A stretch of DNA of 64,000 bases, taken from Podocnemis expansa (Eukaryota > Chordata > Testudines > Podocnemididae). The notes beneath the pieces are model-generated. The model was not told the DNA's origin. It saw nothing but the letters and a program-made list of their open reading frames with translations, and did no database searches. Shown here piece by piece: positions 189 through 58,585 of this stretch; position 1 is the first letter of the stretch, and each line of letters starts with the position of its first letter. The DNA lies in the NCBI GenBank assembly GCA_007922195.1, contig ML681971.1, positions 22,402,386-22,466,385 on the forward strand, in the 5' to 3' direction. A program made the position numbers and the translations under genes.

Positions 189-1060
189 GGAGAACAGAAA
201 CCAACGACACTAAGGTGAGTCAGTAACAGTCCACTATGAATTTCTTAATGGATAGCAGCCCAGAATGATTTAAAGAGACAATTGCTTAACCGCAATTGTA
301 GCAATGGCATGACTGGCTGTGTCCAGGCAAGCTACACCACTGATAAGGCGTCACGAGAGGCCAAGGTGCCTTCACTGAAAGCGTTGTAATCCTCCCACTG
401 TTCTTGTGGGAGAGAGCTGTTAAACACTTCAAGCATTATGCCAATCTAGAGGGGACATCTAGTAACTGAGGCCTGATGGTCAACAATTTTCCATGGGCAC
501 CGAAGCAAGGGAACTTGGCTACGGGACAAATGTCCTTCTCCGTTGCCATGACCTTGGTACTATTTCCCGTATTTGCAGCATTGATGCATGCAAGGGCCAT
601 AGAAAAGCATACCTGGTGGCGATGCACCCAGCGTCATAATGGACAGAGCCTGGGGATCCCAGCACAAGGGTTGCAAAAAGAAAGATCTTGAGGATCCAGG
701 GCACAGTGGGAGAGAGACTCCCTCTGACGAGATGGGGTGGGGGTGTGACACCATGACAAGGTGCAGCCCGGGCTCCCCACTTTTTGTCTGTTTTCTCACT
801 GTCTTTCTTCCTTCTTGCTCTTCTTTTTTCCCCACTAAGAATAGAGTAGGGAGATGACCAATGGCGGGGGTCATCTGGCTCGCCAAGATCCAAGGTCACT
901 ACACAGTATTGCAGGATGGAACTGGTAACATGTTCCCGCCGTCCTTGTAAAGGTCTTGTAGCTGCCTGGCACTGAAACTTTATGCGTGCCAAGAAGAGGC
1001 TACCCCTATTGCTTAATGTAACCCATGAGCTAAAAGCGCAGGAGTCATAAGGAAGGGTGA
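189..1060. other. No gene seen; left flank of DIRS-like copy 1
   Basis: Open frames here are short, overlap on both strands and match no family I recognise. The left end of the DIRS-like copy that runs rightward to 4940 probably lies in or near this stretch, but I could not find its expected left terminus (a copy of the internal complementary region). Confidence 0.35.
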
Positions 1061-1074
1061 CCACAATATTACCG

Positions 1075-1466
1075 GCACCTTGAGGGCAGGTTCTCTAATG
1101 GGAAAAGACATGTGCCAGGTGAGGAGGCTCCAGGGAAAAGGGGCAGGGAACCACCTAGACCAATGTTCGGAATGAGTATTTACAACTGGCCTCTGGGTTA
1201 GTACCAGGGCCCGACGGCCAGAGTTGGACGGAAATTTCATCCCACCTGAAGGGAAGGAGGATAACTGGTCCATATACTACCCTGAAGGCGGGTGGTCTAA
1301 TGAGAAGATGCCCACTGGGTGAGCAGGCTCTGAGGAGCCACATAGGCCGTTGTTCACAATAAGTATTTACAACTGACCTCTGGGTCAATGTCAGAGGGAC
1401 CAACCACCAGAGTTGGGCGGGAATTCGCCCCAGAGAGGAGAGAGGGGACAGATGGTCCACAGATTA
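1075..1466. repeat. Imperfect tandem duplication, period about 187 bp
   Basis: Two consecutive units share GTATTTACAACT (at 1176 and 1363), CTCTGGGT, CCAGAGTTGG and TGGTCCA in the same order and spacing, giving a period of 187 bp. The units differ at many positions, so the duplication is old. It lies in the G-rich noncoding part of DIRS-like copy 1. Confidence 0.75.
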
Positions 1467-3000
1467 CCCGGCCCCATCATGAAGGGGGGGAGGGGTAGAC
1501 TGGGGCAGTGAGCCTATGCTATCAGTTAGCTGGTGGCCACTAGAGGTGCTCCTGGCATCCATAGAGTGCTCACTGAGTGGCCTTAAGTCACTTCCACCTA
1601 ACCACGAAAACAAAAACCCCTCTGAGGACTAGGGGATGAAGCCCCGGGTTGTAGGGTCCCAGAATACCCTGGATTTCCTGGCAAAACAGCCCCATAACCC
1701 ACCAAGAGGTCCGGCTAAAATATTAAGGGAGCAGAGCTCTTTTCCCACTAAGAGTAGGAAAAACTCCTTTTTCAATTTGGGAAGGAGAGGGATACATGAA
1801 GGGTCAAGGCCAGGGCTCTGCCATGATGAGATACTCTCAAGCGTGTTCACCCCAAGGTGGAGATAGGATGGGGGGGATTCTGGCTGGGGAAAGGGTTAAA
1901 AACCCATAAAGTCTCTGATCCGGATTCAGGGGGTGGGATCCGAGAGGCTGGGCATCTAACTGCCTGGTACTGCCGTTCCGGCTTGGTGTGCGGGCAGGGC
2001 GACAGCGAGTTGACCAGTCCAGGGAAGAGGAAAAGGGGGTAGGGCCCCAGACCTGCCAGACAGCCGCTGGCCAGGGGAGGGCCTGTTTCATGGCCCATGT
2101 TGTAAGACACTGGGGTTCTGTAGTTGTGGGACTGAGAGGCAGGAAAAAGGAAAAACCCCTTTGAGCGGTAGGAAGGGGAGATAACCTGAAGAGCTCCACC
2201 CCACTATAAGGAGGTGCACCAAACCCCTTTCAGAGGAGGATGGCGTGAGGGTTCAGAGCCCACCTAGGTAAAAAACCCCTCTGAACGTGGGTTCGGGGCG
2301 CATGGAACCTGGAGATATGGCCTTTGCAACTAAGCAAATGTGTTCACTTAAGTAACAACAGGGATGCTGAGGGAGGAGTCCCTTAACTCCACCACAGGGA
2401 GTCCCAAAGAGGAAACGCTGTCCCTCCCAAGTTTTATAGGGATACCCTGGTTTTCGCCCTCTGTGCCCAAGAGGGGGAGCAGAGAAGCGCCGAGCTTGAA
2501 GAAGCGGGGGGGGGGAGAGGGGCTTCCCCCACCAATAGGAGAAAACCTGACTGAGAAATAACTGGTGGCACCAGAGAGGAAGGGAACCTTCAGGGGATGT
2601 TTTTGCATCCACTACTCTGGGTGGTAGACAGAAGTATGTCAAGGCCTGGGGTAGAACGAGGTCCCTGCCTAAAAGGGAGAACAATGACCCTCAGCCAGAA
2701 TGAGAGGTTCCAATCTCCATGGAGAGAGGGGTCTCTTCGCAGCAAGAGGAGGGGCAGGCCCGGGGTGGGAGACGCTTCCACTGGAGTCCCCACAGCAAGA
2801 GGAAGAGCAGGCCTGGGACAGGAGGAAACTCTCCTGACTGGCATGGAACCAGGTCACAGGGGTGAGAGCACCGTAACTCAGCCACTAGGGAGGCTCAATC
2901 AAGGCAGGGGCATAAAATTCCAACAGAGTTGGAGGCGTGCAGGGGCCCTTGAAGACAGGAGGTCAAATTACTTAATCTCCCCTCGGGGGTCCTGGGCACT
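1467..3000. other. G-rich noncoding internal part of DIRS-like copy 1
   Basis: Purine-rich sequence with many AAAACCCCTC-type runs. No open frame longer than 155 codons exists on either strand and none resembles a known protein. RT and recombinase of a complete DIRS element would be expected here and are not detectable. Confidence 0.4.
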
Positions 3001-3009
3001 ATCAGTTAC

Positions 3010-4578
3010 GGTCTCCGTCTCAGCCACAAATGAATCTCGCCATCAAAAGGGAGGTCGAAGATGACCTGCTGGGAGGCAGGGAGTACCCCCACTTCTCTAA
3101 GCCAAGTCATGCACCAGAGGGTCACGGCTGAGGCCATTGTGCAGGAGGCTGTGTCTACAGCACCCCAAGCCAATAGGAGGTCTTGGAACAATATCCTGCC
3201 CTTCTCCAGGAAGGCATCATAGTCTTCCCTAGCCTCCTGTGGGAGTAGGTGCCTGAACCTTATTCATTGACTCCCACACATCCATCACATACCTGCCCAC
3301 CAAGGCAGGATTATTGGCCACACACAACTGGAAGGCAGAGGAAGAATAGACCTTCCACCTCAGAAGATTAAATTCCTTCACATCCCTCGATGCCAGGATG
3401 GGGTCACCAGGAATTTGCCCTGGGCCTAGCCCCACTTCCACCACCCTCCTAGATGGTACCAGGTGGTGGGTGAGGGAAGGAAACTCTGTCCCTGGGACCT
3501 GATATTTGAGGTCCGCTGTGTCCGATACCAGGGGAATGGAACCTGGCCTTTGCCAACATGACAATGCAAGATCCCAAACACTAGGATGGAGAGGGACAGT
3601 GATAGGTTTGCTGGACGTGAACACCAGCCCAAAAAATGTGTCGGCAGGTTCCTCAGGGGATTGAACTTCCATCCCCGCATGGGCATCAACATAGCAAAGA
3701 AGATCAAAATGAGCTGTGAGGTCTCCCGTGTAGGAGCATGGCACAGGGTTTAGGGCTCTGGCCGGTGCCAGAGAAGCGGATGCCAAGATGAGCTCTGCAG
3801 TACCCCGAGGGCCCGATGCAGTCTCTTGAGAGAACAATTCATGAGGCCAGTACCTAAAGGGTGACGATGCCAGGGGCCTCAAATGGGGCCGTTTAGACCC
3901 CCTTGAGGCACCTCCTCCAGGCTCAAAGAAAGGGAAACTCCTTGGGACCACAATGATGGTGTCGGTGACAGCAGAGTGATGCAGTGCTATGGAGAAGGCT
4001 CAACAGTACTGGGGCTCTCACACATGGGTTCTGGTGTCAGGGAACTTGGTACCAAAGCCAGAAAGGGTGTTCAGTGGCGCTTCCAGGGCAGCCACACCCT
4101 CAAGGCAAATGCTGGCCTCCTGGGGGGTACCAGAGAGGGCGGTGTGGGTAATAAGAGGAGCACCTTCGCTACCTCGAATGCCTCCGGTATCACGGGGAGC
4201 GGCACCGACTCCTCTCAATCCCATGGTGACCTCCGTGTGGGGGACTGGGATCAACGCTGTCGTCGTGGTACCGACACTGGTACCAAGCTAGTCTTTTTGC
4301 GCTCTCTGGGGGAGCGGTGCTGGGAAAGGCTCCAGTGCCGAAGAGGCATGCAGTGCCGTAGGAGACCCCAAAGCCTCAGAGGTAGGCTGCTGTGCTTGCC
4401 CTGAGGCCAACACACAGTGCCTTTGCTCCCTGTCTCTGATTGTCCTGGGCTTACAGGACAGACAGATGGAGCAGGAGGTGACCAAATGGGCTTCACCAAG
4501 GCACCAAAGGCACTTTGCATGGGGGTCATCCCACAGGAAGGCCTTGCCACAGAGAGCACAAGGTTTAAACCCTGGCAT
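3010..4578 (-). pseudogene. DIRS-like gag, broken copy 1
   Basis: The start MPGFKPC at 4578 opens a Cys/His finger of pattern C-x2-C-x12-C-x2-C-x4-H-x4-C-x2-C, the same as in the intact Gag at 36869. The frame stops at 4288. It reopens in the same frame at 3951-3229, where the segment around LCVANNPALVGRYVMDVWES matches the intact Gag segment LRIANQQAILSRYMFNAWSA. A frameshift near 3230 moves the end into 3191-3006, which contains FDLPFDGE, equivalent to QDLPFEGP in the intact Gag. Gag is inferred to form the ribonucleoprotein particle of the retrotransposon. The copy is dead: at least two stops and one frameshift. Identity is by motif alignment by eye. Confidence 0.75.
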
Positions 4579-4940
4579 GGCGGGCGGCGGAGGGGAGCGA
4601 TGTTGCTGCTCCGATGGATGCTCGGAAGAGGAGACGCTCTTCCGTTGGAACAATGTCCACAAAGAGGTGTTCCCAGTTGAGCTGCTGGCTCATAAAAAGG
4701 AGAAGACAGGCCACTTGCACGATTGCAAGGAGCGGGCAGTTCCATAAACCATTGCTGAGGTGGACAAAATTGAACTGAGGAGGGGCCGGGCGGCGGCCAC
4801 ACATATAGCCATGGGGTGGCAAGGGGATAGCGGCCGCCAGCCCTCTCCTGACGGGCTAGGGCAAAAAAGTTTCCAACCAATCGTGCACTGCAGCATGGCT
4901 ATACCTATTACTGAATGAATCTGAGCAGCAGTCAATTCCA

Positions 4941-5332
4941 GAACTTTTTGTTCTGGAAGGTCATTTTGTGGGTCTCCACACTAAAACTGGTTATTGCTCT
5001 CAAGTATCCTCTGAGTCTGTGGTAACTTCTGATGTCAATCTTTATGGAACAGCTGATTAAGCTACTTTAAAAATTAAAGAAAATATTTTGGTTTAAAAAA
5101 ATTTTACAAAACATGCATACCAGTCAGCTTTTAATTTTTCGGTGATATTTAGGAAATCAGATGCCGCTTAAAAGCCCCTTGACAGAAACCAGAGGTACAA
5201 ATCTAGCAGAAAATTTCAAGTGCTTTTGCTTTTCATAATAAGGAATGGATTATTGCTGAGAGGTTAGAGCAAGGGGAATTGAGAAGCAGGATTCCTGGAC
5301 TCTAATTCTAACTTTCCCAATAACTTACTGTG
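4941..5332. other. No gene seen
   Basis: AT-rich spacer between DIRS-like copy 1 and the hAT cluster. No coding signal or clear repeat is visible. Confidence 0.4.
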
Positions 5333-5574
5333 CAGGGCCGTCCTTGGGGCGAGAGAGGCAATCACCCTGAGTCCCGCGGTTGCCAGGGCAGCGCGGGGCC
5401 TGCTCCACTGCCTCCACAACCAGCTGTTTCTGCCACGGAGGTGGGGCGAGCCAGCCAAAAGCAGAGGCTGGGTTCTGCGCTCCTGGTCCCCACACTGCCT
5501 TCAGCTCTGCGCCAAAGGCAGTGAGCAGGAGGCAGCACAGCCTTGGTGGGGGGCAGGGCAGCAATGCAGGCCCT

Positions 5575-6780
5575 GTAATGTTTTCTAGGTCTAGGGGACT
5601 GTTTATGATTATTTTTCATATTAATATTTCATATTTGCAATAATCCATATGTGATATGACATGTTTGGTATCAACAGAAAAGCTATAACCTGCTAAGAAT
5701 GATTATATGGTTTGTATGTAGATATCATGCTGTATTAGAAATCTATTTGTTTTTATGCATTTTCCAAGGGATTTGATTTTAAGGCATTCCCAGAAAAAGT
5801 GGGCCTAGGAGGAAACCTGTTCTGCCAGCCACCCAAGCTGATCACATGACAACTCCATTTTGATTTGGCAAGGACCCTGAGAGCATGGGGAGGGCCAACA
5901 GGTCAGGGCCATAACTAGAGATGATAGCGCCTGTGGCAAACAGCCCCAAAGACACTCCCCCTAGACCTGGGCCCCGATCCAGGGCCCATCCAAACCCTTC
6001 CCCCAGCAGCTAGAGCCTGGCAGGGGGTTTCTTACCCCACCGCATCCAGAGCGCTAGGGGGGAACCCCTTCCCCTGCCGGGGCCAGCGCCAAGCTGGGAG
6101 CACCTTCTCCCCCCATAGTCAGAGCTGGACGGGGTTTCCCTTTCCCTGATGCAGCAGTAGAGCTGAGTAGGAGTCCCCTACCCTGCCACAGCTGGAGCTG
6201 GGCGGGGAGCTCCTTCCCCAGCTCCCTGAGGAATGTGCCTTTAAGGCACATTCCTCTTCAGGTCCAGGAAAGGGTCTGGCACCCTTTCAAATTGGTGCCC
6301 AGGACCTTGTCCCTTTTGCCCCACCATAGTTACAACCCTGCAAAAGGTCATAAAAGCCCATTCTCCATTTTGTTTTTAGTCTTCAGTCTGTCTGCAACCA
6401 ACACCCCCCTCTGGAACTATTCTCCTGGGACTGAACAAAGGACTGAGACCCACCCACCCAGCTGCTGCTGTTGCTGCTGCTGAGTGCACACCAGAGCCTG
6501 CAAACTACAGGATCTTCAAAGATTTGTTTTCTATGGACTCTAAATCACTTACATGTATGTGATTCACTTTGACCCTTTAACATCTCTCATGTTTTGTTTG
6601 TTTTCTTTTAATATTAAACCTTTAGTTGTAGTTACTAAAGGATTGGCTGGCAGTGTGGTAATTTGGGTAAGATCAAAGCCTATATTGTTCTAGGTGATGT
6701 GGCTGGACCTTTGGGGTCAGGAGAACCTACTTCTTTAAGAGACCCAGTGGCTAGAGGGGACCATAGGAACTGATGTGCAG
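5575..6780 (+). mobile_element. LTR-like insertion inside the hAT element
   Basis: This block has no counterpart in the related hAT at 10844-11259, so it looks inserted. It begins near TGTAATG, has a TATA-like CATAAAAG at about 6349 and an ATTAAA polyadenylation-like signal at about 6614, the arrangement expected of an LTR. No target duplication or exact ends could be fixed, so the class is uncertain. It was later hit by the hAT at 5904-6340. A short CTG-rich run lies at 6461-6482. Confidence 0.3.
5904..6340. mobile_element. hAT-type non-autonomous element, 437 bp
   Basis: Inverted ends CAGGGCCATAACTAG and CATAGTTACAACCCTG. The 8-bp target duplication is CAACAGGT (5896-5903) versus CAAAAGGT (6341-6348), 7 of 8 identical. 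The ends match the element at 50101-50613, so they belong to one family. The GC-rich core has no transposase. Confidence 0.85.
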
Positions 6781-7479
6781 TAAGGGTGGGCTCAGAGGCT
6801 GATTGGCCCAGGGCCCCACACCCCCCCTAGGGACAGCCTTCTTTTGTGTTGGCCTTGGAAGCCAGGAAATCACTTAATGAAGGTCAGAATAAATATAGGG
6901 ATCACTTCTGGGCAGGGCCGGCTCAAGGGGTTGTGGCACCTGAAGCCAAATTTTGCTTTGGTGCCCCCTCATCTCATTCATGTAACTTGAAAAAGGTTTT
7001 CCAAAGTGCATTTACAACCTAAAATTCAAATAGCAAGATTAATTCATTCCTTCAATCTAAATATGAAAATAAAATAATATTGATGAATTTAAATTTAATT
7101 AATAAGAAACATTTATCATGTACAAACTTACTAAAATTTTGCGCTCTCTCAGTCTCTTAAGGTGTCTCAAGTCAACATCCAAAAGCTGAGGCAAGGTGGG
7201 GGAAGAGAATCAGTGTCTGCTTTTGAAAACTTACCTGATGCACATGATTTCCCAAAGGCTACAGAGCAAAGACCAGCAAAACAAGCAGAGTTTTGTGGCA
7301 CTTTTAAAGACTAATGTGCCACACAACTCATGGCAGCCTCTTTACAATTTGTGTTCAGGAAGGAAAGGTTTAGGGATCTAAACATCAGGTGTGACTCCTG
7401 CAGGTTTGAACTGTAGCAAGATCACCTTGGCTTGCTATCCCTCTGAGGTAGCCAGGTGGAATTCTAAGCCATTTACTGT

Positions 7480-7718: not shown

Positions 7719-7937
7719 TTCTTTATCATGATTTTCCTGTTCACTTGTACATTGATTGTCTGATTTGTTGCCAATTACACCATGCTGTGTTTCTTTATGG
7801 ATACTCCTAACCTATTCAACATGATTAGTATGATACCATGTTTCTGACAACTTCTTGCTCGCGTGCAGACATGTAGCATGTTTAGCATGGCTCAGGGGGT
7901 CGGTGAGAGGGAAACAGAGCTCTCTCCCAACAAAGTT

Positions 7938-8168
7938 CCAAAGGGGCAGTCGTGTTAGTATAGTCCAGCAAAAAAACCACCAAGGAGTCGTGTGTCACTT
8001 AAAGACTAACAGAATTATTTTTTTCATGAGCTTTCGTGGGAGAAAATCCCACTTCATCGATTCTGTAAATTCTCCCATCTTTGAAGCATCTGACGAAGTG
8101 GGATTTTCTGCCACAAAAGCTCATGCGAAAAATAAATCTGTTAATTTTTAAGTGCCACATGACTCATT
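7938..8168. repeat. Foldback repeat, both arms
   Basis: Left arm runs from AAAGGGGCAGTCGTGTTAG through TCGTGGGAGAAAATCCCACT; right arm is its reverse complement, from GAAGTGGGATTTTCTGCC to AAGTGCCACATGACTC. The centre lies near 8075. Noncoding. Confidence 0.85.
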
Positions 8169-8296
8169 TTTTTTCCTCTTTCCCAGCAGCAAGGAAACAC
8201 CTGAGGGAAGCAACAAAAAACAGGTCAATTGAGGTGGATCAGAAGAGACAATGGGATCACCTCTGCCCACAAAGGGGATAGGGGAGAGTTCTGGAA

Positions 8297-8515
8297 CAAA
8301 AAACAAACAAGGATCCCTGTGGCACTTAAAGGCTAACAAGTTCAATTTATCGCATGACCTTTCGTGGGAGAAAATCCCACTCTGTCAGATGCTTTGAAGA
8401 CGATGAAAACCTGAAAGCTCATGCGATAAATAAATTTGTTGGTCTTTAAGTGCCACAGGACACCTTGCTTTTTTGCTGAATTAAACTAACAGGGCTGCCC
8501 CTTTGACACTTGAAA
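8297..8515. repeat. Foldback repeat, shortened centre
   Basis: Left arm AAACAAACAAGGATCCCTG to AGATGCTTTGAAGACGATG; right arm AAAGCTCATGCGATAAATAA to CAGGGCTGCCCCTTTG. The middle is deleted compared with the copy at 8598-8852. Confidence 0.85.
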
Positions 8516-8597
8516 GAGTTTGTTTTCACTCCTCACCCCTCCCATTGTGGCAGAGGTGATTTCTTTGTCTCCTCTAAGCCACCTGAATCAGAATATC

Positions 8598-8852
8598 TTT
8601 GTAAAAACAAACAAGGAGTTTTGTGGCACTTAAAGACTAACAAATTATTGCATGAGCTTCTCCCACTTCCTCAGATGCTTTGAAGATGAGGGAAATTACA
8701 GAATTCTCTAATTTCCCTCATCTCCAAAGCATCTGACGAAGTGGGATTTTCTCCCACAATACTTCGTGTGATAAATAAATGTATTAGGTTCTAAAAATGC
8801 CACAGGACTCCTTGTTTGTTTTTATTGAACTAGACTAACCTGGCTGTTATGT
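8598..8852. repeat. Foldback repeat, complete centre
   Basis: The best palindrome of the family. GATGAGGGAAATTACAGAATTC is mirrored by TCTAATTTCCCTCATC near 8700, and the outer arms pair from CAAGGAGTTTTGTGGCAC to GCCACAGGACTCCTTG. Third copy in a row within 920 bp. Confidence 0.9.
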
Positions 8853-9621
8853 AGTTGTGTGTGTCAGGTTTGGTGGTTGGGGTTTTTTTTTTCTTTTTTT
8901 ACATTTACAAATAAATGTGGCCTATTGTCTTGTCCCCTGAAGAGATCCTGCTGCTAGTATTGTGGGGGAGTGGTACAACCACCCTCAGGCCCTACCATTG
9001 TGACACCATCGGGGCTTGGGGGGAGGGGAGAAGAGGGGAGAGACCCCAGTCACACTGTCTGTGCTGCATTGGGGGACCCCTCCTCATCCCCCTTTTGCAA
9101 AGGGCACTGAGATGAAGAATGCTATAAGGGCTAAATCTAACAGGAGTGAGGAATTATTTCAGTGTCTATTTAGCTGTTTTCAACTGTAGATCTCAAAGCA
9201 CTTTTAAAAGGGAGGTAAGCTTCATCACCATTTTTATTTTTCAGGTGAGGAAACAGTCCCAGGAATGAGAAGTGACTTTCCCAAGCACGTCCAGGCAGAG
9301 CCAAAAAGAGACCTTTGGTCTCCCAAGTGCCAAGCCCAGTGATCTAGGAAATGCTGTCCTTCTATGTATAGTTTAACTTTTTTTTCTTTTTAAACTAGAG
9401 ACACGTCATTGGTTTTAAACCAGCTCATATTACTGTAAGCAAGCCCTGGTATTCTCCACCCTCTCCATCCCAACAGCCAACAAAGGAAACTAGGTGACAC
9501 TGGAAGGGAAAAGAGACTGCTGACCAGCCCAAAAGTCTGTGTCCTCCCTCTTCATTGCACTGACTAGGTAACTGTGCTCAGATCCAACTTTATCTGCATA
9601 GAAGTGACTGCCAGCGGCTGA
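8853..9621. other. No gene seen; interior of the large hAT-type element
   Basis: Unassigned sequence with a T-rich run at about 8880. Short open frames only. Confidence 0.35.
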
Positions 9622-11316: not shown

Positions 11317-13597
11317 GTCTAGACCTGCTGCTCACAAACAGGGAAGAATTGATCAGGGAGGTAGAGGTAAATGGCAAACTAGGCAGTAGTGACCATGACA
11401 TGGTTGAGTTCAGGAGGCTGATTAAAGGAAGGAAGGAAAGAAGCAAAACAAAAACCCTGGACTTCAAAAAAGCAGATTTTGGCTCCCTCAGGGAACTGAT
11501 GGGCAGGATCCTTAGGAAGCTAATCTGAAGGGGAAAGGAGTCCAAGAGAGTTGGTTATATTTTAAAGAAACCCTGCTAAGGGTACAGGAAGTTGCCATTC
11601 CAATTAGGAGAAAGAACAAACATGAGGCAGCCAGAATGGCCTAGCCGAGAACTCTGCTCTGAGCTTAAACATAAAAAGGAAGCTTACAGGAAGTGGAAGC
11701 TTGGTCAGATGAGCAAGGAGGCTTATAAAGATATTGATAGGGACTGCAGGGATAAAATCAGAAAGGCCAAAAGACAAATGGAGTTGCGGCTAGCGAGGGA
11801 TGTAAAGGATAACAAGAAGGGGTTCTACAAGTACATTAGTAACAAGAAGAGAATCAAGGATGGTGTAGGTCCCTTGCTGAATGGGGCAGGCATCCTTGTG
11901 ACAGAGGATGAGGGAAAAGTTGAAGTGCTCAATGCTTTTTTTGCTTCAGTTTTCACAGGCAGGGTCAGCTCCCAGCCCACTACCATGGGTATGGCAAGAT
12001 TGGAGAGAAGAGAGGCCCTTGGTGACGGAAGGTCAGGTTAGGGACTGCTTAAAGAAGCTGGATGTGCACAAGTCCATGGGGCCGGACGAACTGCATCCAA
12101 GGGTGCTAAGGGAATTGGCCGATGAGATAGCAGCACTGCTGGCCGTTATTTTTCAAAATTCATGGAGAACAGGGGAGGTGCCAGAGGATTGGGAAAAAAG
12201 CAAATGTAGTGCCTACTTTCAAGAAAGGGAAAAAGGAGGATCCAGGGAATTACAGACCAGTCAGCCTCACCTCAATCCCTGGAAAAATTATGGAGCAGGT
12301 TCTCAAAGAATCCATCCTAAAACACTTAGAGGAAAATAAAGTGATCAGGAACAGTCAGCATGGATTTACCAAGGGTAAATCATGCCTGACCAATCTCATT
12401 TCCTTCTATGATCAGATGACTGGTTTTCTGGATGCAGGAAGAACTGTTGATGTGATATACCTTGATTTTAGCAAGGCTTTTGATACAGTTTCCCACAGCA
12501 TTCTCATTGGCAAATTAAGGAAGTATGGGTTGGATAGGTGGACAGAAAACTGGCTAGATCAACGGTTTCAGTGTATAGGAATCAATGGTTCCATGTCTAG
12601 CTGGCAACCAGTCACGAGTGGTGTGCCCCAGTGGTCAGTCCTGGGGCCGGTTCTGTTCAACATTTTCATCAATGACCTAGATGATGGAATAGACTGCACT
12701 CTCAGTAAGTTCACGGATGACACCAAGCTGGGGGGACCAGTGGACATGTTAGAGGGCAAGGACAGGATTCAGGGAGACCTAGATAAACTGGAACAGTGGA
12801 CCAATAGAAATCTTATGAGCTTCAATAAGGACAAGTGTTAAATCCTGCACTTGGGACGGAAAAACCCTATGCACTGCTACAGGCTGGGGAACATTCAGCT
12901 AAGTAGCAGCAGTGTAGAAAAGGACCCGGGGGTCATGGTGGATGGGAAGCTAGATATGAGTCAGCAGTGTGCTCTTGCGGCCAAAAAGGCCAATGGCATA
13001 CTGGGCTGCATCAAAAGAAGTGTTACCAGCAGATCAAGGGATGTGATCATTCCCCTCTATTCTGCACTGGTGAGGCCACATCTATAATACTGTGTTCAGT
13101 TTTGGGCTCCCCACTACAAAAAGGACAGGGACATGCTAGAGAGAGTCCAGCGGAGGGCAAGCAAAATGATTAAAGGGCTGGAGCACAAGCCCTATGAGGA
13201 AAGACTGGAAGCATTAGGCTTATTTACTCTGCAGAAAAGAAGATTGAGGGGGGATTTGATAGCAACCTTCAACTACTTGAAGGGATGCTCCAAGGAAGAT
13301 GGAGCTCGACTGTTCTCGGTAGTAACAGAGGACAGAGCGAGGAGCAATGGCCTCAAGTTACGGTTAGGGAGGTTGAGGCTTGATATTAGAAAAAACTTTT
13401 TTACTAGGCGAGTGGTGAAGCCTTGGAATGAGCTGCCGAGGGAGGTGGTGGAGTCTCCATCTTTGGAGGTGTTTAAGGCCCGGCTGGACAAAACCATGAC
13501 TGGGATGGTTTAGTGGGAGAGGTCCTGCCTCTGGCAGGGGTTTGGACTAGATAATCTATGAGGTCCCTTCCAACCCTATGTTTCTATGATTCTATGC
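11317..13597 (+). mobile_element. CR1 LINE, 5'-truncated
   Basis: The element starts in the last part of the endonuclease domain and runs through the RT to a CR1-type 3' end: GGTCCCTTCCAACCCTATG followed by TTTCTATGATTCTATG. Upstream UTR, ORF1 and most of the endonuclease are missing, as is usual for LINE insertions that end early during reverse transcription. No target duplication is expected or seen. Confidence 0.9.
11320..13513 (+). pseudogene. CR1 ORF2 remnant (endonuclease end, RT)
   Basis: The frame opens with LDLLLTNREEL and SSDHDMVEF, the end of the apurinic-type endonuclease. It stops at 11529, resumes at 11592 and shifts frame near 12040 and again near 12200. The RT core is at 12209-12841: [43 protein letters not shown]. 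The catalytic box reads FTDD where CR1 elements have FADD. Further stops lie at 12839 and 13084. The C-terminal part (13133-13513) keeps [13 protein letters not shown] and [14 protein letters not shown]. Intact, this protein would nick the target and prime reverse transcription; this copy cannot. Confidence 0.92.
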
Positions 13598-28723: not shown

Positions 28724-28922
28724 CAGTGGGTTACTTACCGGTAACCATCCTTCTTCGAGATGGGCTGCTTGGATTCATTCAGTAATAGGTATACGTGCCT
28801 CAGCGCACAATTGGTCAGAAACCTTTTAGCCCTAGCCTGTCAAAACAGGGCTGGCAGCCAATGCCCCCTGGCCACCTGTGGCTATATATATGGCTGCAGC
28901 CCTGACCCTCCTCAGTACCTAA
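28724..28922. repeat. Left terminal repeat of family-B DIRS
   Basis: Opens CAGTGGGTTACTTACCGG and carries TGGCTATATATATGGC at about 28878-28894, a TATA-box-like core that could serve as a promoter. Inverse partner lies at 39342-39512. Confidence 0.8.
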
Positions 28923-28959
28923 AAGTTGCCAACTCCGAGTTGCGGGGGGTGGGAGGATT

Positions 28960-29050
28960 CTGAATGAATCCAAACAGCCCATCTCGAAGGAGTACAGTTA
29001 CCGGTAAATAACCCACTGTTCTTCTTCGAGAGCTACTCAGATACATTCAG
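28960..29050. repeat. Internal complementary region of family-B DIRS
   Basis: 28960-29018 (CTGAATGAATCCAAACAGCC...) is inverse to the left terminus; 29019-29050 (TTCTTCTTCGAGAGCTACTC...) is inverse to the right terminus at 39474-39512. In the DIRS model this region joins the ends of the linear cDNA into a circle. Confidence 0.8.
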
Positions 29051-31306
29051 TAATGGGCGACTGCTAGGCATACCAAAGTTGGGTTCTTTTCCCACTTTCA
29101 GCATGGTTACCTCTGAAACGGCCAAACCCCAGGCCTGGAGGAGCCAGTAGGATGAAACGGCCCGGCCTAAGTAGGGAAGGAGTGAGGCCTATACCTCTCA
29201 AGTGCACCCTGCCTATGACCGCAGGGGAGAGGGAGGCCTGAAGTCACCTTATCATGGAAAGAGATATGGTGGCAACATCTCAAATTGGTTGGGCACCACC
29301 AGATGAAGGACATAAGAGGCCGGTGCTAGGCACCTGACAAAAGGAGGCGACCAGGGTGCATCCCTTGGTCTTAGGCTCATGAGGAACACCCTAGCTGGTT
29401 TGATCGGGGGGCTGAGGTGGAATCCAGAGTTGCTGGCCTGCTGACCTATACCAGGAATCAGTAAAAGAGAGAGAGAGAGACAGAGAGGGAGAGAAGGAGA
29501 CCCCTCTACCGACCCAACTAAGGGGAAAAAGGGTTATGTGGTTGTGCGGGAGGAATTGAATAACCACCCAGCCAGAACATTTTACCTGGTGTGTAAATGC
29601 CAAGACCGCAACCAAGGTACCCGATGCCCCCTTCAGAGACCCACAGAAAGTGTGGCCACTGGTGGCTGAAGGGAGAGGGAGAACGTGGGGCCAGGGAGAG
29701 TTTGTATGAGCCCACTGTGCTAAGGGGCCAAACCAACACTTTTGAGATGCCAATGGGAAGAGAAGGTCCCATGGTTGGGATGTAGGAGGAACCAGCCCCA
29801 CTTGGCCGATTTTGGGGTTGAAAGGAGGGGAAAGGCACAATGTGAAACAGTGCCCCACGTGTAAGGTATATTGCCTCCACAACCGACTGCCTCCCCTCAC
29901 TAGGCAGCGGGCAGGTATATAAAGGCCCTGAGTGGATCGAGACCATAAACTTCCCCCATGGAACATACAAAAGGAGGAAAAGGAGGTACAGTTTCAAAGG
30001 CCTCCCAAATACTGAATAGAAGGAATCATGAAGGAGGCAGTAGGGATTGGGATGGGAATGTTTATTTCCTCTGATAAGTACCCCAGAACCAAGGCAGATG
30101 CAGGAGGATAATCCTCCTGAGGAAAGAAGGCGCCACCCTATGGGGAGACAGGGTGATAAAGTTAAGGGGTTGACCACCCTGGGCCTGAACTGGGAAGGGG
30201 CAAAGAAGACAACATGTGGGTCTACCCCAAAAAGGATTCCCATCCCCACGGGAAGGGTCCCAGAGTCATTAGATCTCCCCCTCTAGGTGTAGGAGTGGGT
30301 TTATCAGCATTGTGAGGGGTGAGGTATCCTCGGAGTGTGCTAGCGCAAGGACAAAAAAAGACACAACCCGCTGAAGGAGTGCACTTGGTCCTGGGTACAG
30401 CCTGGGGTGTTGCCCCGGGGTGCACCAGAATGGAACCACACTGATCTCCAATACGCTGGAGTGTGAGAGGAGATGTATTTGCATCGGGGAATTGGCAAAA
30501 TCAAAAGGCCCCTATTCTGGAGCATGGAGGGAGCATGGGCATGTGGGTTGGGCAGGTGACCATTGACGGCGTGCCTACCAGCTCCTGACCAGGCACCTGA
30601 TAAGGAAAATTAAAGCAATGCCCACCAATATGACCCCAGGGGACAAGGCCTTCATGGAACGAGTAAGGCTTGATGGAACCTGGACCGATGAATGCTATCA
30701 GGCAGAAGGATAAGGGGACCACAGGGCCCACCCCGACAGCAAGCCAGTTGGTCGCATTTGTCATTGGTCCTAGGGGGATAGTAGTCACTGAGACACTCAG
30801 AGGGAAAAAAAAAAAAAAAAAAAAGGAAGGTCAGCGTCTGGCGTTGGGATCCCCCATGTTATCCACTCTCTCTCTTCTCTGGGGGGGGGGGAGGAGCCCC
30901 CTCCCAAAGTAAATGACCCCAAGCTGAAAAACTCTTAACCTATACCTGAGAGCATGGTATAGTCCATTAGAAACCCCATGAAGGTGCCCCAGCCCGCGGC
31001 CTAAGCAAGTAAAGTCTGGGGGGGGGGGGGGCAGGCGACAGCCCTTCAAATATCCTGACCCGAAGGGTACTTGGTATTTGGACTTGCGGTGTGGTGGCGG
31101 GGAGGGAGGGCAGTGGGCCTTTGAGCTAGGGAAGGGTGGTTCAACAAAGCCCTGTCCCAGGCATGTCCCCGTAAGCTATCGGGGGTATGGGCTGCCCAGG
31201 GGATTGCCAGGAGGGCATTCTTAAGGGCATGCCACATGGGAGAAGGAATCCCAAGGGGTATTCCAACAGAGCCACCAGGAATATTTTTCCCAGGAGGTGA
31301 TTTGTA
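29051..31306. other. G-rich noncoding left part of family-B DIRS
   Basis: In a complete DIRS element the recombinase would lie here. The longest minus-strand frame (30249-29518, 243 aa) has no R/H-x-x-R/Y recombinase motif and no RT motif. Includes a GA-rich run (29467-29495), an A-run (about 30806-30826) and G-runs (30880, 31019). Confidence 0.5.
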
Positions 31307-31307
31307 A

Positions 31308-31512
31308 GAAGAGGTTACTTACCGGTAACCGGTGTTCTTCGAGACGTGTGCTCCTGGCCATTCCTTAGTAGGTGTCTGCACGCCTCGTGCACGGCACGCC
31401 GGAAACTTTTCCCCCAGAGTACCCGTAGGGTCGGCTGTAGTGCCACCTGGAGTGGCGCCGCCGCCACTGCCTATATAGTCACCAGCCGACCCGTCCCTCC
31501 TCAGTTCCTTCT
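31308..31512. repeat. Left (3') inverted terminal repeat of young DIRS
   Basis: From GAAGAGGTTACTTACCGG to CCTCCTCAGTTCCTTCTAC. It is the inverse of 37041-37217 but extends further outward by about 28 bp that include ACCGGTAACCGGTG. Confidence 0.92.
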
Positions 31513-31541
31513 ACCCAATCTCTGAGGGGCGGTGGGAGGGA

Positions 31542-31645
31542 TTGGAATGGCCAGGAGCACATGTCTCGAAGAACACCGGTTACCGGTAAGTAACCTCTTC
31601 TTCTTCTTCTTCGAGTGCTGCTCCTGGCCATTCCTTAGTAGGTGA
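31542..31645. repeat. Internal complementary region of young DIRS
   Basis: 31542-31602 (GGAATGGCCAGGAGCACATG to GGTAAGTAACCTCTTC) is the reverse complement of the left terminus 31308-31363. 31603-31645 (TTCTTCTTCGAGTGCTGC to CTTAGTAGGT) is the reverse complement of the right terminus 37177-37217. It thus spells the head-to-tail junction of the two ends. Confidence 0.9.
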
Positions 31646-31676
31646 ATATCTAGCCTTACCTTGGAGGTGGGAGACA

Positions 31677-32693
31677 TCACAGAGAGACCGACTGCAGCAC
31701 TGCTCTGCCCACTGCCGCATCCTGCTGCGCTTGCTGGTTAATGGCATAATGCTGTGCGAAAGTATGCGGGGTGGACCACGTTGCTGCCTTGCATATATCA
31801 ATAATCGGGACACCCGCGAGGAACGCTGCGGAAGCCGCCTGGGCCCTAGTTGAATGAGCCGTTACCCTTGGCAGGTGCTTACCCCCCAGCTTGTAGCACT
31901 CCTTGATGCAGGCTGAAATCCAGGAGGCTATCCTCTGAGTAGACACCGGTTGGCCTTTTTTATTGTCCGCTACTGCCACAAACAGCTGGGGGGTCTTGCG
32001 GAACGGCTTTGTCCTTTCCACATAGAAGGCTAGCGCTCTGCGCACATCCAGGGAGTGGAGACGCCTCTCCTCTTCCGATGCATGGGGCTTCGGGTAGAAG
32101 ACAGGCAGGGAAATGTCCTGGTTCACATGAAAGTGTGACACCACTTTAGGCCTGAAGGATGGATGAAGGCGTAGCTGTACCTTGTCCTTAAAAAACTGGG
32201 TATACGGTGGATCCACCACCAACGCTCGCAGCTCGGACACTCTCCGGGCTGACGTGATAGCCACTAAAAACGCGACCTTCCACGACATATACAGGAGGGA
32301 GCAAGTCGCCAGTGGCTCAAAAGGGGGTCTAGTAAGTCTTACCAGTACCGTATTTAGGTCCCACTGAACCGTGGGCGCCTTTACAGTCGGGTATAGTTTG
32401 GAAAGCCCCACCAGGAACCTTTTTACCATAGGCACCGTGAACAGCGAGCTACCCCCAGGACCGCGGCAAAACGCTGCAATCGCCGCAAGGTGGACCTTCA
32501 GGGACAATAATGCTAGTCCACTCGACTTCAAATACCATAAATAGTCTAGTAAGCGGTGAACCGAGACCGACTCTGGTTCCTCCCCGTTGGCTGAGGCCCA
32601 CCGCGCAAACCTGTGCCACTTAGCGGCATATGTAGTTCTCGTGGCAGGTTTCCTGCTGCCACACAACACCGCCCGTACCGGGGAGGAGCACAT
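31677..32693 (-). CDS. DIRS tyrosine recombinase
   Basis: The 338-aa frame reads from MCSSPVRAVL to the stop beside the internal complementary region. The start is the first Met upstream of the recombinase N-domain; the frame is open further upstream only because it shadows the RT frame. The core-binding-like part covers about residues 20-100. The catalytic part has the first Arg in AITSARRVSEL (150-151), the H-x-x-R box in TAHSTRAQ (280, 283), Trp 306 in KAATWSTP and the nucleophile Tyr 316 in AQHYAI. All expected catalytic residues are present and no stop interrupts them. The enzyme would insert the circular cDNA by cutting and joining without target duplication. The frame differs from that of RT, as in other DIRS elements. 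Confidence 0.93.
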   Translation of the reverse strand: MCSSPVRAVLCGSRKPATRTTYAAKWHRFARWASANGEEPESVSVHRLLDYLWYLKSSGLALLSLKVHLAAIAAFCRGPGGSSLFTVPMVKRFLVGLSKLYPTVKAPTVQWDLNTVLVRLTRPPFEPLATCSLLYMSWKVAFLVAITSARRVSELRALVVDPPYTQFFKDKVQLRLHPSFRPKVVSHFHVNQDISLPVFYPKPHASEEERRLHSLDVRRALAFYVERTKPFRKTPQLFVAVADNKKGQPVSTQRIASWISACIKECYKLGGKHLPRVTAHSTRAQAASAAFLAGVPIIDICKAATWSTPHTFAQHYAINQQAQQDAAVGRAVLQSVSL

Positions 32694-32848
32694 CTGTTCG
32701 TTGTCCGTCAGCCATGAAGGCACCACGCGTGGAGGTGTAGGGCCTCCAGGTTGGGGTGGAGAAGTCTCCCGCTGTCCTGGGATAATAAGTCTGGTCTGAG
32801 TGGCAACCGGATCGGCCTGCATCTGGACCACCACATTAGGACCGAAAA

Positions 32849-34657
32849 TCAATGCTGCCTGGGCCACGCGGGGGCGACCAAGATGACCTGCGCCTTGTCC
32901 ATCTTTATCTTCCACAGCACCTTGGCTACTAACGGTGTCGGAGGGAACGCGTACAGGAGACCTCTCTCCCCGCAGTGGATCTCGAAAGCATCCGCCCCCG
33001 AACCGGGGCTGCGTCCCCGGAAGGAGCAGAAGCTCTGGCACTTTGCGTTGACCATGGAGGCGAAGAGGTCTAGACGGGGATAACCCCACTTCCGGAAGAG
33101 TGACTCCGCCACCTCCGGGTGAAGAGACCACTCGTGGGTCATGAACTTCCGGCTGAGCTTGTCTGCTAAGCAGTTCTGGAGGCCGGGAATATACGATGCC
33201 ACTGGTTGGATCTTGTGGCGAATACAAAACTCCCAGAGCTTCATGGCTTCCTGACAAAGGAGAGGCGAGTGCGTGCCACCTTGCTTGTTGATATAATACA
33301 TTGCGGTGGTGTTGTCGGTACGAACCGACAGCGTCTGGCCCCGGAGGTGTTCTTGAAATACCTCGCATGCGAGTCGGACTGCTCTGAGCTCCTTTATGTT
33401 GATGTGTAGCGCGGAGTCTGCGACCCCCCACAGGCCCTGTGTCCTGAGGTCTCCGAGATGCGCACCCCAGCCGATATCTGATGCATCCGTCGTCAAATGC
33501 AGTGATGGCTGAGGAAGACTGAACGGAACCCCTGAGCATAAATTGGCTTCGCAGGACCACCAATGCAGGGTCTCCAGCACCGATCCTGGCACAGTGAGCA
33601 TAGCGTCCAAACTGTCCCGCACTGGGCGGAACACCGTCGCCAACCACAGTTGGAGCAGTCTCATCCGTAAGCAGGCGAAAGGGACTACAAAAGTGCAAGC
33701 CGCCATGAGACCCAGTAAGCGGAGGCATTCTTGCGCCGATACCCTGGGAAACCTCACCAGAGCATCCACTGTCTGTCTGATAGTCTGAAACCGGTTGGTC
33801 AGGAGGCTCGCCCTTACAGACGTGGAATCGAGGACCGCTCCTATAAACTCTATTCGTTGCGCGGGAACCAACGCCGACTTTTGGACATTTATCAACAGAC
33901 CTAAGCAATCGAAGATGTATTGAGTCAGGTTTATGTGGGACAACACCTCTCGCCGCGACTTCCCCACGATCAGCCAGTCGTCCAGATATGGAAACAGGGT
34001 GACTCCTTGTTTCCTGAGATGTGCCGCCACCACCGCCAGGCACTTTGTGAATACCCGCGGAGCTGCGGAGAGGCCGAACGGGAGCACGGCGAACTGCAGG
34101 TGCGTCCGCCCCACGATGAAGCGCAGGAACCTCCTGTGCTGCGGATGTATTGCAATATGAAAGTACGCATCCTGCAAATCGAGGGCGGCATACCAATCGC
34201 CCGGATCCAGAGAGGGAACAATTGATGAGAGGGACACCATCCGGAACCGAATCTTGCGAAGGAACCGGTTGAGCCGCCTCAAATCTAAAATCGGCTGCAG
34301 GCCCCCTTTCGCCTTGGGAACAAGGAAATATCGGGAATAAAAACCCTTGCCCTTGCAGGGTGGCGGCACCTCCTCCACTGCCCCTTTTTGAAGTAAAACC
34401 TGCACCTCCTCCCGTAGTGCATGCTGGTGGGCCTGGTCCCGCAGGGCACCACGCAGCGTAGGAGGGGCCGGCGGGGGCAACGAAGAAAATTGGAGGGAAT
34501 AGCCCTCCTGAACCGTCCGGAGGACCCAGTGGTCTTTTGTGATCTTGCGCCAACGTGGCGCGTAAGGGGACAGTCTGTTGCTGAATATGGGAGTCTCTGG
34601 ATCTTTGGCCTTTGATAAACCGCCCTCGTGTTGACCCTCAAAAGGTCTTTTTTCCAC
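32849..34657 (-). CDS. DIRS reverse transcriptase / RNase H
   Basis: 602 aa. RT spans about residues 75-300 with LVPKAKGGLQPILDLRRLN, ALDLQDAYFHI (Asp 160), LPFGLSAAPRVFTK and the YLDD catalytic box (residues 224-227). RNase H spans about 385-505 with LTTDASDIGWGAH (Asp 391), INIKELRAV (Glu 423), VRTDNTTAMYY (Asp 448) and NCLADKLSR (Asp 499). A conserved tail follows: YPRLDLFASMVNAKC and AYAFPP-like text. The frame ends at a TGA (32849-32851) straight after APAWPRQH. The same frame stays open beyond it with DIRS-like sequence, so this is probably a nonsense change of a Trp codon. It starts 20 bp inside the end of gag. The protein copies the RNA into cDNA. Confidence 0.93.
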   Translation of the reverse strand: MEKRPFEGQHEGGLSKAKDPETPIFSNRLSPYAPRWRKITKDHWVLRTVQEGYSLQFSSLPPPAPPTLRGALRDQAHQHALREEVQVLLQKGAVEEVPPPCKGKGFYSRYFLVPKAKGGLQPILDLRRLNRFLRKIRFRMVSLSSIVPSLDPGDWYAALDLQDAYFHIAIHPQHRRFLRFIVGRTHLQFAVLPFGLSAAPRVFTKCLAVVAAHLRKQGVTLFPYLDDWLIVGKSRREVLSHINLTQYIFDCLGLLINVQKSALVPAQRIEFIGAVLDSTSVRASLLTNRFQTIRQTVDALVRFPRVSAQECLRLLGLMAACTFVVPFACLRMRLLQLWLATVFRPVRDSLDAMLTVPGSVLETLHWWSCEANLCSGVPFSLPQPSLHLTTDASDIGWGAHLGDLRTQGLWGVADSALHINIKELRAVRLACEVFQEHLRGQTLSVRTDNTTAMYYINKQGGTHSPLLCQEAMKLWEFCIRHKIQPVASYIPGLQNCLADKLSRKFMTHEWSLHPEVAESLFRKWGYPRLDLFASMVNAKCQSFCSFRGRSPGSGADAFEIHCGERGLLYAFPPTPLVAKVLWKIKMDKAQVILVAPAWPRQH

Positions 34658-36869: not shown

Positions 36870-37040
36870 AGCCCGACCCCGGGCCCGGGGGGGGCTCGAA
36901 ACTACTAACTAACCTAACTCTAAATAAAGAACTAACTAACTACCACCAACTAACTGGTTCGGATACTTCGAAGCAAAAAACGGCCACGTGCAGTACTGCA
37001 CGAAGCCAGGGAATGTTCCAGTGACCGACAGGGCGGTAAG

Positions 37041-37217
37041 AAGGAACTGAGGAGGGACGGGTTGGCTGGTGACTATATAGGCAGTGGCGGCGGCGCCACT
37101 CCAGGGGGCGCTACAGCCGACCCTATGGGTATTCTGGGGGAAAAGTTTCCGGCGTGCCGTGCACGAGGCGTGCAGACACCTACTAAGGAATGGCCAGGAG
37201 CAGCACTCGAAGAAGAA
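37041..37217. repeat. Right (5') inverted terminal repeat of young DIRS
   Basis: From AAGGAACTGAGGAGGGACGG to CAGCACTCGAAGAAGAAC. Inverse of 31308-31512. Lies upstream of gag on the minus strand and so should carry the element promoter. Confidence 0.92.
37070..37082 (-). promoter_or_regulatory. TATA-like motif of young DIRS
   Basis: Minus-strand CTATATAGTC within the right terminal repeat, about 205 bp upstream of the gag start. The family-B termini have a TATA-like motif at the matching place. Activity is inferred only. Confidence 0.5.
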
Positions 37218-37419
37218 CCTATGTAGTTCCCTGTGACTGAGTTATGTTCCCCCTTGAGCACAAGGGATATATGTTTGGTCCCTGTTGCCCTGCGAGGATT
37301 TCACAAACGGTATGCAGAAAAGTATAAACCTCAGTATCGTGTTAGCCCAATTTGCCTTCAGGGTAAGGAATGGGAGGCCCCCGGGGAGGGGGGGGGTCAG
37401 GTGCCTTCACAGTCCTAGG

Positions 37420-39147
37420 TGGGAAGAAGGACTCTAAGGAAAATGAAACCTGCAGGGTGAAGGGATTGAAGGATGACCATTACGGGCCAGGAGAGTAGCA
37501 TACCCAGGTATTTTAGGTCCCCTTTGAGGTCAGGGGCACCGCGGAGGGTACTGTCCATCCCTTCCACAAAGAGGGATCCCCCTTCGAAAGGGAGGTCCAA
37601 TACGACCTGCTGTGAGGAGGGGGCACCCTTGCCTCTTGAAGCCGTGCTGCCTGTCTCAGGACCATGGCGGAAGCCACACTGCGGCTTGCCGTGTCCAAAG
37701 CATCCTGGGCAGATAACAGCAAGTCTTGGGACGCTAACCTAGCCTCTTCAACAAAAGTATCATAGTCTGCCTTGTTCTCTTGGGGGAGTAGATGCCTGAA
37801 TTTATTCATAGCCTACCATACGTCCATGATGTAGCTGGCCACCGGAGCTTGGTGGTTTGCTATTCTGAGCAGGAAAGCAGAGGAGGAGGAAGCCTAACAG
37901 GTCTAATTCCCTCGCCTCTCTAGACCTCAAGAGAGGGTCATGGGAAAATTGTCTGGGGCCTAAGGCCGCTTCCACTACCCCTTGAGATGGTACCAGGTGG
38001 TAGGAGAGAAAGGGAGAATCTTCTGCAGGGACCTGGTATTTTTGTCCCACTGTATCCAACACCAGAGTGATGGACCCAGGAGTCTGCCATTGTGCCATGG
38101 CAATCTCCTATATACTAGGGTGCAGGGGAACTGTTATGGGCTCAGAAGGTGACGTGCGCCCAGGGCCAAATAGTGTGTCACTAGGTCCCATAAAGGAATG
38201 AGCCTCCAACCCCACGTGAGCACACACAGTAGAGGAAATCAAAATGCACCATGAGGTCCCCTGTATAGCAGCTGGCGTAGGGTTCAGTGCTCTGTCAGAT
38301 ACTGGAAGACTCAGGGCCGGACGAGACCAATCGGTACCGCAGGAGAGTGGTAGGGTCTCCTGCAGGGACCACTCATTGGGGCTGGTACCTGCAAGGTGTC
38401 AGTACCGAGGACAGGGCTGTTTACTCCCCCTCGAAGCCCCTTCTTTTGGACTCAGAGATCAGGATTGTTCCCGGAGCCGCACTGGGCTCATCTTTGGCTC
38501 TGTGGGAGAAGCTTTAGACAGCGGTGCCAGGAGGGACAAAGTGATACGGCCCCAAGGGCTCTTGGACTCTGTCCCCTAATGGTACCAGGGGCCTCTTCCT
38601 GGGCACCCAGTTCTCTTGCCGGGGAGCCCAGTACTGAAACCGGGGAAGGAGTCCAGTGCCTTTTTTGGGGCAAACAGGCACCTGAAAGGAAGACCGGTTT
38701 ACCCCTCTTTCTGGGTGGCACCGGGGTGGGAGGCATTGGTAAAAGAAGTGCTTTTGCCATCTCAAAGGCCTCCAGGGTAGTGTGGACCAGTACCAACTCC
38801 TGCCGGTCCCAGGGAGACATGGAGCAGCACCGACACTGCAGTACAGAGGCTGGTACCAAGCATATCTTTTGCTCTCAGGGAGAGCAGGGCTGGGACAGCT
38901 CTGGCGCAGAGCTGGCACACGGTGCTGAATGTAGCCCCGAAGCTTTGGGGATAGCTTGCTGTACTTGCTCCAAGGCCAACGCATGACGCCTTTGCTCTCT
39001 GTCTTTTATGGTCCTTGATGTAAAGGACTGACAGATAGCGCATTCGGTGACCAGATGGACTTCACCCAGGCACTGGAGGCACTTCTCGTGGGAATCATAC
39101 TGTGGGAACGCCTTGCCGCAGATAGCACAAGGTTTGAACCCCAGCAT
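37420..39147 (-). pseudogene. DIRS-like gag, broken copy 2 (family B)
   Basis: Starts MLGFKPCAICGKAF at 39147 with the same C-x2-C-x12-C-x2-C-x4-H-x4-C-x2-C finger. It continues to about 38875, then resumes in other frames: LSYHLVPSQGVVEAALGPRQ (38098-37802), MNKFRHLLPQENKADYDTF with DLLLSAQDALDTASRSVASA (37809-37513) and LPFEGGSLF (about 37595). These match copy 1 (MNKVQ, DLLLAWGAVDTASC, DLPFDGE) more closely than the intact Gag, placing both dead copies in one family. The young DIRS lies just beyond its end. Confidence 0.78.
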
Positions 39148-58580: not shown

Positions 58581-58585
58581 AGCAA

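Follow-up and report, generated by a model that had tools for sequence, protein, structure and literature searches.

A truncated element in the Podocnemis expansa genome is probably a copy of a Gag-keeping, non-autonomous DIRS retrotransposon family

The 64,000-nucleotide stretch of Podocnemis expansa DNA considered here (assembly GCA_007922195.1, contig ML681971.1, positions 22,402,386 to 22,466,385 of the forward strand; hereafter the window) carries two elements with the ends and Gag of DIRS retrotransposons. DIRS1-like elements of vertebrates and other organisms are described in the cited passages as bounded by inverted terminal repeats, with Gag as the first open reading frame (ORF) and complementary regions inside the element at its 3′ end (PMC3266345, PMC9210276). 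The first element spans 271-4940 of the window with its sense on the minus strand, rather than 480-4940 as the original prediction had it, and is a copy of a repeat family termed B1; the second, outer element (28724-39512) belongs to a family termed B2 and is split by a nested DIRS of an enzyme-bearing family, A. Judged from its sequence, the first element is old and truncated and probably belongs to a non-autonomous DIRS family that has kept Gag; there are at least three such families, each present in multiple copies. Its parts are as follows; RT stands for reverse transcriptase.

271 to 4940, minus strand: B1 copy with its 3′ (left) end truncated, colinear with fetched copies from 271-283 to 4928-4935 at ~80-84% identity
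4774 to 4935: B1 right inverted terminal repeat (the 5′ end of B1), matching fetched B1 ends and the ends of the outer element
3039 to 4578, minus strand: decayed B1 gag with its start codon at 4578, located by tblastn with the Gag of the nested element
271 to 3038, minus strand: B1 middle (filler) with no recognised gene, pyrimidine-rich on the sense strand and without DIRS RT or recombinase by tblastn

The gag of the window B1 copy aligns with the nested Gag by tblastn over residues 1-81 at 51% identity (E 3e-17), and over residues 422-584 and 584-658 at 29% and 35% (E 5e-24). The middle is G- and A-rich on the plus strand, with a sense-strand pyrimidine fraction of 0.57 over 483-3000. Of the layout first described for 480-4940, the decayed gag on the minus strand, the right repeat (4774-4929) and the G-rich middle with no detected RT or recombinase all stood; the left terminal repeat placed at 480 was rejected, as homology to the family continues to 271. 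The copy is cut off at that position, and thus lacks both the left repeat and the internal complementary region.

B1 is dispersed through the 2.39 Gb of genome searched, in which the best 40 candidate places were scored per query. Positions 3229-4940 gave 51 matches from the 40 best of 9528 preliminary candidates, with identities of 77-86% in nearly all cases, a count that includes several pieces of one copy and the window itself; the B1 middle alone gave 47 matches from the 40 best of 378 candidates scored. Twenty loci of 10 kb each (given L numbers below) were fetched. Fuller copies are ~5.7 kb long and consist of a left repeat, a complementary region, the middle, gag and a right repeat; the complementary region begins with sequence complementary to the left end and continues with sequence complementary to the right end. 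Both repeats and the complementary region are present in five of six copies inspected and, across the 20 loci, in 13 (at one of these, L017, an insertion splits the left repeat); one more locus has a partial left repeat, and at the other six the fetched stretch includes no left repeat belonging to the B1 copy. The copies are old, with pairwise identities of ~0.80-0.87. The B1 middle also contains a diverged tandem duplication of ~200 bp, at 69-70% in L018 (oriented positions 5323-5531 and 5525-5719) and in L026, with partial matches of the same kind in other B1 copies. End and complementary-region pieces resembling those of B1 and B2 adjoin B1 copies in L028 (oriented 1797-2194) and L010 (oriented 9200-9620); their flanks matched neither middle.

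The outer element and its nested DIRS comprise the following features.

28724 to 39512, minus strand: B2 copy (outer element), split by the nested DIRS; inverted ends 28751-28914 and 39348-39510 at 86%
28724 to 28916: B2 left inverted terminal repeat, by self-comparison
28960 to 29062: B2 internal complementary region; 28722-28782 matches 28960-29020 in inverted orientation at 90%
29063 to 31305, minus strand: B2 middle (filler) left of the nest, with long matches to B2 copies at 71-85%
31306 to 37217, minus strand: nested DIRS of family A, from ORFs, Pfam, repeats and empty sites in B2 copies
34638 to 36869, minus strand: family A gag
32849 to 34657, minus strand: family A RT and ribonuclease H (RNase H)
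31677, minus strand: end of the family A recombinase
31544 to 31644, minus strand: family A complementary region; terminal repeats are also present
37218 to 37500, minus strand: B2 middle right of the nest, matching B2 copies; B1-B2 homology restarts at ~37500
37501 to 39147, minus strand: decayed B2 gag, by tblastn in several frames with E to 1e-17 and ~64% DNA identity to B1 gag
39348 to 39510: B2 right inverted terminal repeat, by self-comparison

Within the B2 complementary region, ~29018-29057 is an inverted match to the right end of another B2 copy. Self-comparison of the window aligns gag of the first element (3040-3760 and 4268-4928) and one of its ends (4774-4929) with the outer element. 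The two had been taken for copies of one family, a view that does not hold: their ends are 81-84% alike over ~350 bp, their gags only ~64% alike in DNA, and their middles do not align. That the outer element lacks RT and recombinase is borne out for the B2 parts, where tblastn found neither enzyme in the window copy or in six partial loci; the nested DIRS at 31306-37217, inside the interval, carries both. The nested element is identified by a Pfam match to RVT_1 (4e-20), with Phage_integrase (0.004) and Phage_int_SAM_1 (0.008) both below Pfam's cut-off, and its Gag has a weak LAP2alpha match, also below the cut-off; B2 copies elsewhere show empty sites at the insertion. Queries from the left and right parts of B2 gave 152 and 49 matches at the best 40 places each, often as several pieces per copy. 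Among the places scored, both queries matched six besides the window. One of these spans 6.1 kb with a gap; the other five measure 4.7-5.2 kb from end to end, lengths taken from coordinates that leave no space for a pol region. The window B2 copy lacks ~240 bp at ~30194 that other B2 copies carry. Numerous copies of a DIRS family ~80% identical to the nested RT score almost equally and have open frames of ~713 residues, which suggests recent autonomous DIRS activity in this genome.

A partial third element, B3, lies beside the B1 copy at L019. Its ends and complementary region are 71-79% like those of B1 and B2, and it has a gag C-terminus; the ends and gag C-terminus were seen in this one B3 copy, and the complementary region is assigned by that resemblance. 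The B3 middle is itself a genomic repeat (best 40 of 822 candidates scored). Within the B3 query (L019:6700-9200), ~155 bp at positions 959-1115 matched unbroken at only two listed places, one of them itself.

The enzymes expected of a DIRS element were sought in all three families. At none of the 20 loci did tblastn detect a DIRS RT within the B1 element, whether with the RT/RNase H and recombinase of A at E 0.01 or with the proteins of A and of a further family, C, at E 0.5. As controls for these searches, the C RT was recovered at 49% identity (E 9e-127) and Gag at ~30-50%. Weak RT or recombinase matches up to E 0.5 were taken as chance: one in L018 (E 0.23) lies in gag, one in L026 (E 0.15) lies outside the element, and one in L034, in a B2 piece (E 0.01), is antisense. 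In the single B3 copy no RT or recombinase was found in the 3.3 kb between the ends and gag; two hits to RT, with E values of 0.38 and 0.88, were likewise taken as chance. An RT-like match in L023 (25% to DIRS RT) was not counted as part of B1, as it sits in an insertion of ~4.8 kb unseen in other copies; this insertion (oriented 2450-7214) is probably another retroelement. The search for B copies with both RT and recombinase that had been proposed with the original prediction has thus found none among those examined (20 of 20 B1 loci, and the B2 window copy with six partial loci), the recombinase of B1 being only a short remnant; a relative with a B-like end and an RT does exist, namely family C.

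The B1 remnant is a recombinase fragment of 26-56 residues, 38-63% identical to A, which is found in nine of 14 scanned B1 copies at E <1e-3 and in 13 of the 14 up to E 0.56; we take it to cover the first catalytic box. The window copy does not have the fragment because it lies beyond 271. It was not found in B2 (four pieces scanned) or B3 (one copy). The remnant is too well preserved to have evolved neutrally since before the B1/B2 split, so the recombinase would have been lost late in B1, or the B1 3′ end taken from an autonomous element.

The usual position of RT and recombinase is occupied in B1, B2 and B3 by middles of 2.5-3.3 kb that are pyrimidine-rich. When five B1 copies were compared with the window B2 copy, ~350 bp at the 3′ end and ~2 kb of gag aligned and nothing between; by blastn the middles of the three families gave no alignment, with nothing below E 0.2 for B3 against B1. 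A profile of the B1 middle gave weak matches only, the best (E 0.004) next to the 3′ end and one (E 0.07) to the nested element. When evolution of the 3-kb B1 middle was simulated, the profile still recovered 0.8-2.3 kb of descendants that had diverged by 0.6 substitutions per site, and blastn only 35-251 bp; at 0.8 substitutions per site one of eight blastn trials gave 64 bp and the profile trials none. Given these simulations and the gag synonymous divergence reported below (dS 1.4-2.4), truly homologous middles would probably fail to align, and non-homology is therefore not concluded. The middles are alike in size, in GC content (0.52-0.54) and in sense-strand pyrimidine content (0.556-0.588), compared to 0.51 in the RT and recombinase region of the nested A.

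Gag is the one gene that the B families retain, and its constraint was measured. The B gags are related to the nested A Gag by tblastn; B1 Gag pieces had no match in Pfam apart from one at chance level (E 0.54), and one piece gave none at E 0.001 among 7835 candidates in a large protein set. For the ratio of nonsynonymous to synonymous substitution (dN/dS), codons were paired via alignment to the Gag of the nested element and stop codons were skipped. Median dN/dS between families is 0.21 for B1-B2 (84 pairs), 0.10 for B1-B3 (21 pairs) and 0.16 for B2-B3 (4 pairs), where only the C-terminal part of one B3 gag enters the comparisons; the baseline within families is 0.58 for B1 (210 pairs) and 0.46 for B2 (6 pairs). 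Subtracting the within-family values by hand gives ~0.12 for B1-B2. Gag dS is 1.44 for B1-B2, 2.02 for B1-B3 and 2.41 for B2-B3, the last two being near saturation. The share of gag differences at third positions is 0.38 within B1 and B2 and 0.48-0.58 between families. Between families, gag is under purifying selection in the source lineages, whether before or after the enzymes were lost; the check for such selection suggested with the original prediction came out in its favour (medians of 0.10-0.21). Individual copies are decayed: stops occur among the paired codons of 10 of 21 B1 rows and all four B2 rows. An alignment of ten B1 copies shows 0.2-2.1 stops per 100 codons in the gag frame across columns 150-1950, but in columns 450-750 gag cannot be recognised by stop counts alone, the other frames being equally stop-poor there.

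An unrooted gag tree (341 columns, with one A and one C sequence) splits A and C from all B sequences with support 1.000 and sets B2 apart from B1 and B3 with 0.985; B3 falls within B1 at support 0.087, on 130 codons. Family C (L020 with L041), unlike the B families and like A, has RT and RNase H; its RT is 49% identical to that of A, and the recombinase N-terminal part and gag are also present, as known from one decayed copy, partly read. At L020 it is a separate element adjoining B1. The RT search scored 113 C-like matches at 65-100% identity. From 150 matches to C gag came 19 pairs in which a listed C RT is ≤6 kb away; 18 of these are on the same strand, 16 of them 795-868 bp apart. Of 40 matches to the C end, three have a listed C RT nearby. 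By the same kind of comparison, none of the 106 B-gag matches listed lies near a listed RT (113 of C and 73 of A, 186 together), a weak contrast with C, given that the comparison covers listed matches and has little power against an RT unlike those of A and C.

The outermost ends connect the B families with these enzyme-bearing relatives. By BLAST the right end of C (from a second copy, L042) is 69-75% like the B1 and B2 ends over 117-191 bp, compared to only 20 bp against A. Global alignment gives less contrast than BLAST: the end of the first C copy scores 0.748 and 0.728 against two B2 copies, above the maxima of 50 shuffles (0.731 and 0.689). In the left 31 bp of A, 27 positions match B2 and 24 match one B1 copy; leaving out the 10-mer used for lining up, 17 of 21 (B2) and 14 of 21 (B1) match, values reached by 0 and 7 of 100000 shuffles.

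On these comparisons it seems fairly likely that B1, B2 and B3 are non-autonomous, Gag-keeping DIRS retrotransposons mobilised in trans. Each family would have kept its inverted terminal repeats, internal complementary region and own Gag and lost RT, RNase H and tyrosine recombinase, and gag would now be separated from the 3′ end by a middle of similar size, either unrelated or decayed. B RNA would be packaged by Gag, own or shared, and reverse transcribed by the enzyme of a C- or A-like element; the DNA would be circularised through the complementary region, which in DIRS elements probably serves circle-making during replication, and inserted by the helper's recombinase reading the conserved outermost ends. 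Because those ends are shared, RT and recombinase of A or C type could handle B RNA and B circles, and Gag may have been retained since it helps to get the element's own RNA into particles. The idea of a Gag-keeping, non-autonomous DIRS has thereby proved wider than first proposed, extending to at least three multi-copy families with DIRS end anatomy.

Several points weigh against this explanation. The little-decayed recombinase fragment of B1 suggests late loss or a captured 3′ end, and part of the purifying selection on gag may date from an autonomous past. Even within families the ratios do not reach 1 (0.46-0.58), which points to a partial lowering by the method or by subfamily structure, and conserved codons are favoured when codons are paired through a Gag alignment. 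C Gag is only 39-42% identical in amino acids to B Gag and groups with A; for this reason C appears a possible helper rather than a demonstrated parent. In global alignment the C end scores 0.675 against one B1 copy, below the shuffle maximum of 0.724. An autonomous family whose Gag is of B type may have escaped detection, and mobilisation in trans is inferred from the shared end motifs.

A further step can be taken tentatively, namely that the B families form a long-lived gag-only DIRS clade whose own Gag is under strong selection, which draws RT and recombinase from other DIRS, whose ends track those of its partners, possibly by 3′-end exchange, and whose middle is free to turn over. A sharper form of the trans-mobilisation explanation, possible if somewhat doubtful, places a single ancient loss before the split of B1, B2 and B3, with B1 later gaining its 3′ end and recombinase scrap by recombination with an autonomous element. 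It would account for B1-B2 ends that are far more alike than the synonymous sites of gag, and for B-like ends in C without a B-like Gag; the terminal repeats are themselves constrained, however, so their likeness need not mean exchange.

The opposite history, which we regard as rather doubtful, is one of separate recent losses, in which each B family goes back to its own undetected, autonomous DIRS with a Gag of B type, the selection was that on the autonomous ancestors and Gag was a mere passenger in the gag-only families. The recombinase fragment, little decayed in B1 and not found in the pieces of B2 and B3 scanned, is in keeping with this, as is the failure of the middles to align between families. 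However, none of the three families yielded an RT in the copies examined, all B gags lie on one side of the fully supported split from A and C in the unrooted tree, the middles are alike in size and composition, and the low-power coordinate comparison showed no autonomous element with B-type Gag. That the middle encodes an unrecognised replacement enzyme, making the element autonomous in a new way, is highly improbable: some sense-strand frames of the B1 middle are stop-poor over ~500 bp, but the stop-poor frame shifts along the middle, open stretches vary in place and length among the ten copies listed, and none of eight middle ORFs (six from B1, two from B2) matches Pfam at E 0.5. That the copies are dead debris, ordinary DIRS elements that suffered chance deletions and never amplified in gag-only form, can hardly be right despite the age of the copies and a longest stop-free gag stretch of ≤390 codons among 25 sequences examined, and is refuted for B1, B2 and B3 as families by dispersed copies that share one middle per family (best 40 places each).

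Gag-keeping, putatively trans-mobilised families of this kind can be set beside known systems. The B families share with autonomous DIRS1-like elements the inverted terminal repeats, a complementary region matching both ends and a DIRS-type Gag; they differ in that the copies examined lack RT, RNase H and tyrosine recombinase (save the B1 remnant of 26-56 residues) and have an unrelated middle. Non-autonomous partners are well known for long terminal repeat (LTR) elements and long interspersed nuclear elements (LINEs), and DIRS replication is less well understood. The nearest parallel is plant TR-GAG, described in the cited passages as non-autonomous LTR retrotransposons with terminal repeats and a single Gag ORF, the pol region being missing (PMC8704663, PMC5818461); one of these sources reports transposition in Arabidopsis ddm1 (PMC8704663). 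TR-GAG, as there described, has direct LTRs, whereas the B elements have inverted ends along with a complementary region and would depend on a tyrosine recombinase. LARD elements (large retrotransposon derivatives) likewise have a long enzyme-free middle between mobile ends, but are characterised in the cited passage as having no coding regions (PMC5818461), whereas B gag is present and was constrained between families at least until late. In painted turtle, a study whose cited portion concerns domestication rather than non-autonomy scanned 792 regions homologous to the LAP2alpha-like part of DIRS Gag, 642 of them with RT_DIRS1 (PMC4495291); what it shares with the present case is DIRS Gag and the weak LAP2alpha match in the nested A Gag, and its cited portion does not take up the regions lacking RT.

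No description of a gag-only DIRS lineage was recognised in the literature searched, a scope outside which most subscription journals and the Repbase and Dfam entries fall. Gag-keeping non-autonomous DIRS is proposed here as the label for multi-copy families with shared ends, gag and middle and no pol, the DIRS counterpart of TR-GAG; a long-lived gag-only clade, if true, would be a counterpart that has diversified as its own lineage. Such a group marks the parts needed on the element (end repeats, complementary region and perhaps Gag) as opposed to those that others can supply (RT, RNase H and recombinase), and the B families are natural material for asking whether DIRS Gag prefers its own RNA.

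Two further features of the window lie outside the DIRS elements. Positions 11592-13513 contain ORFs that presumably resemble a CR1-type LINE, and a short repeat has many occurrences in both orientations (70-188, 7930-8850 and 57200-58810).

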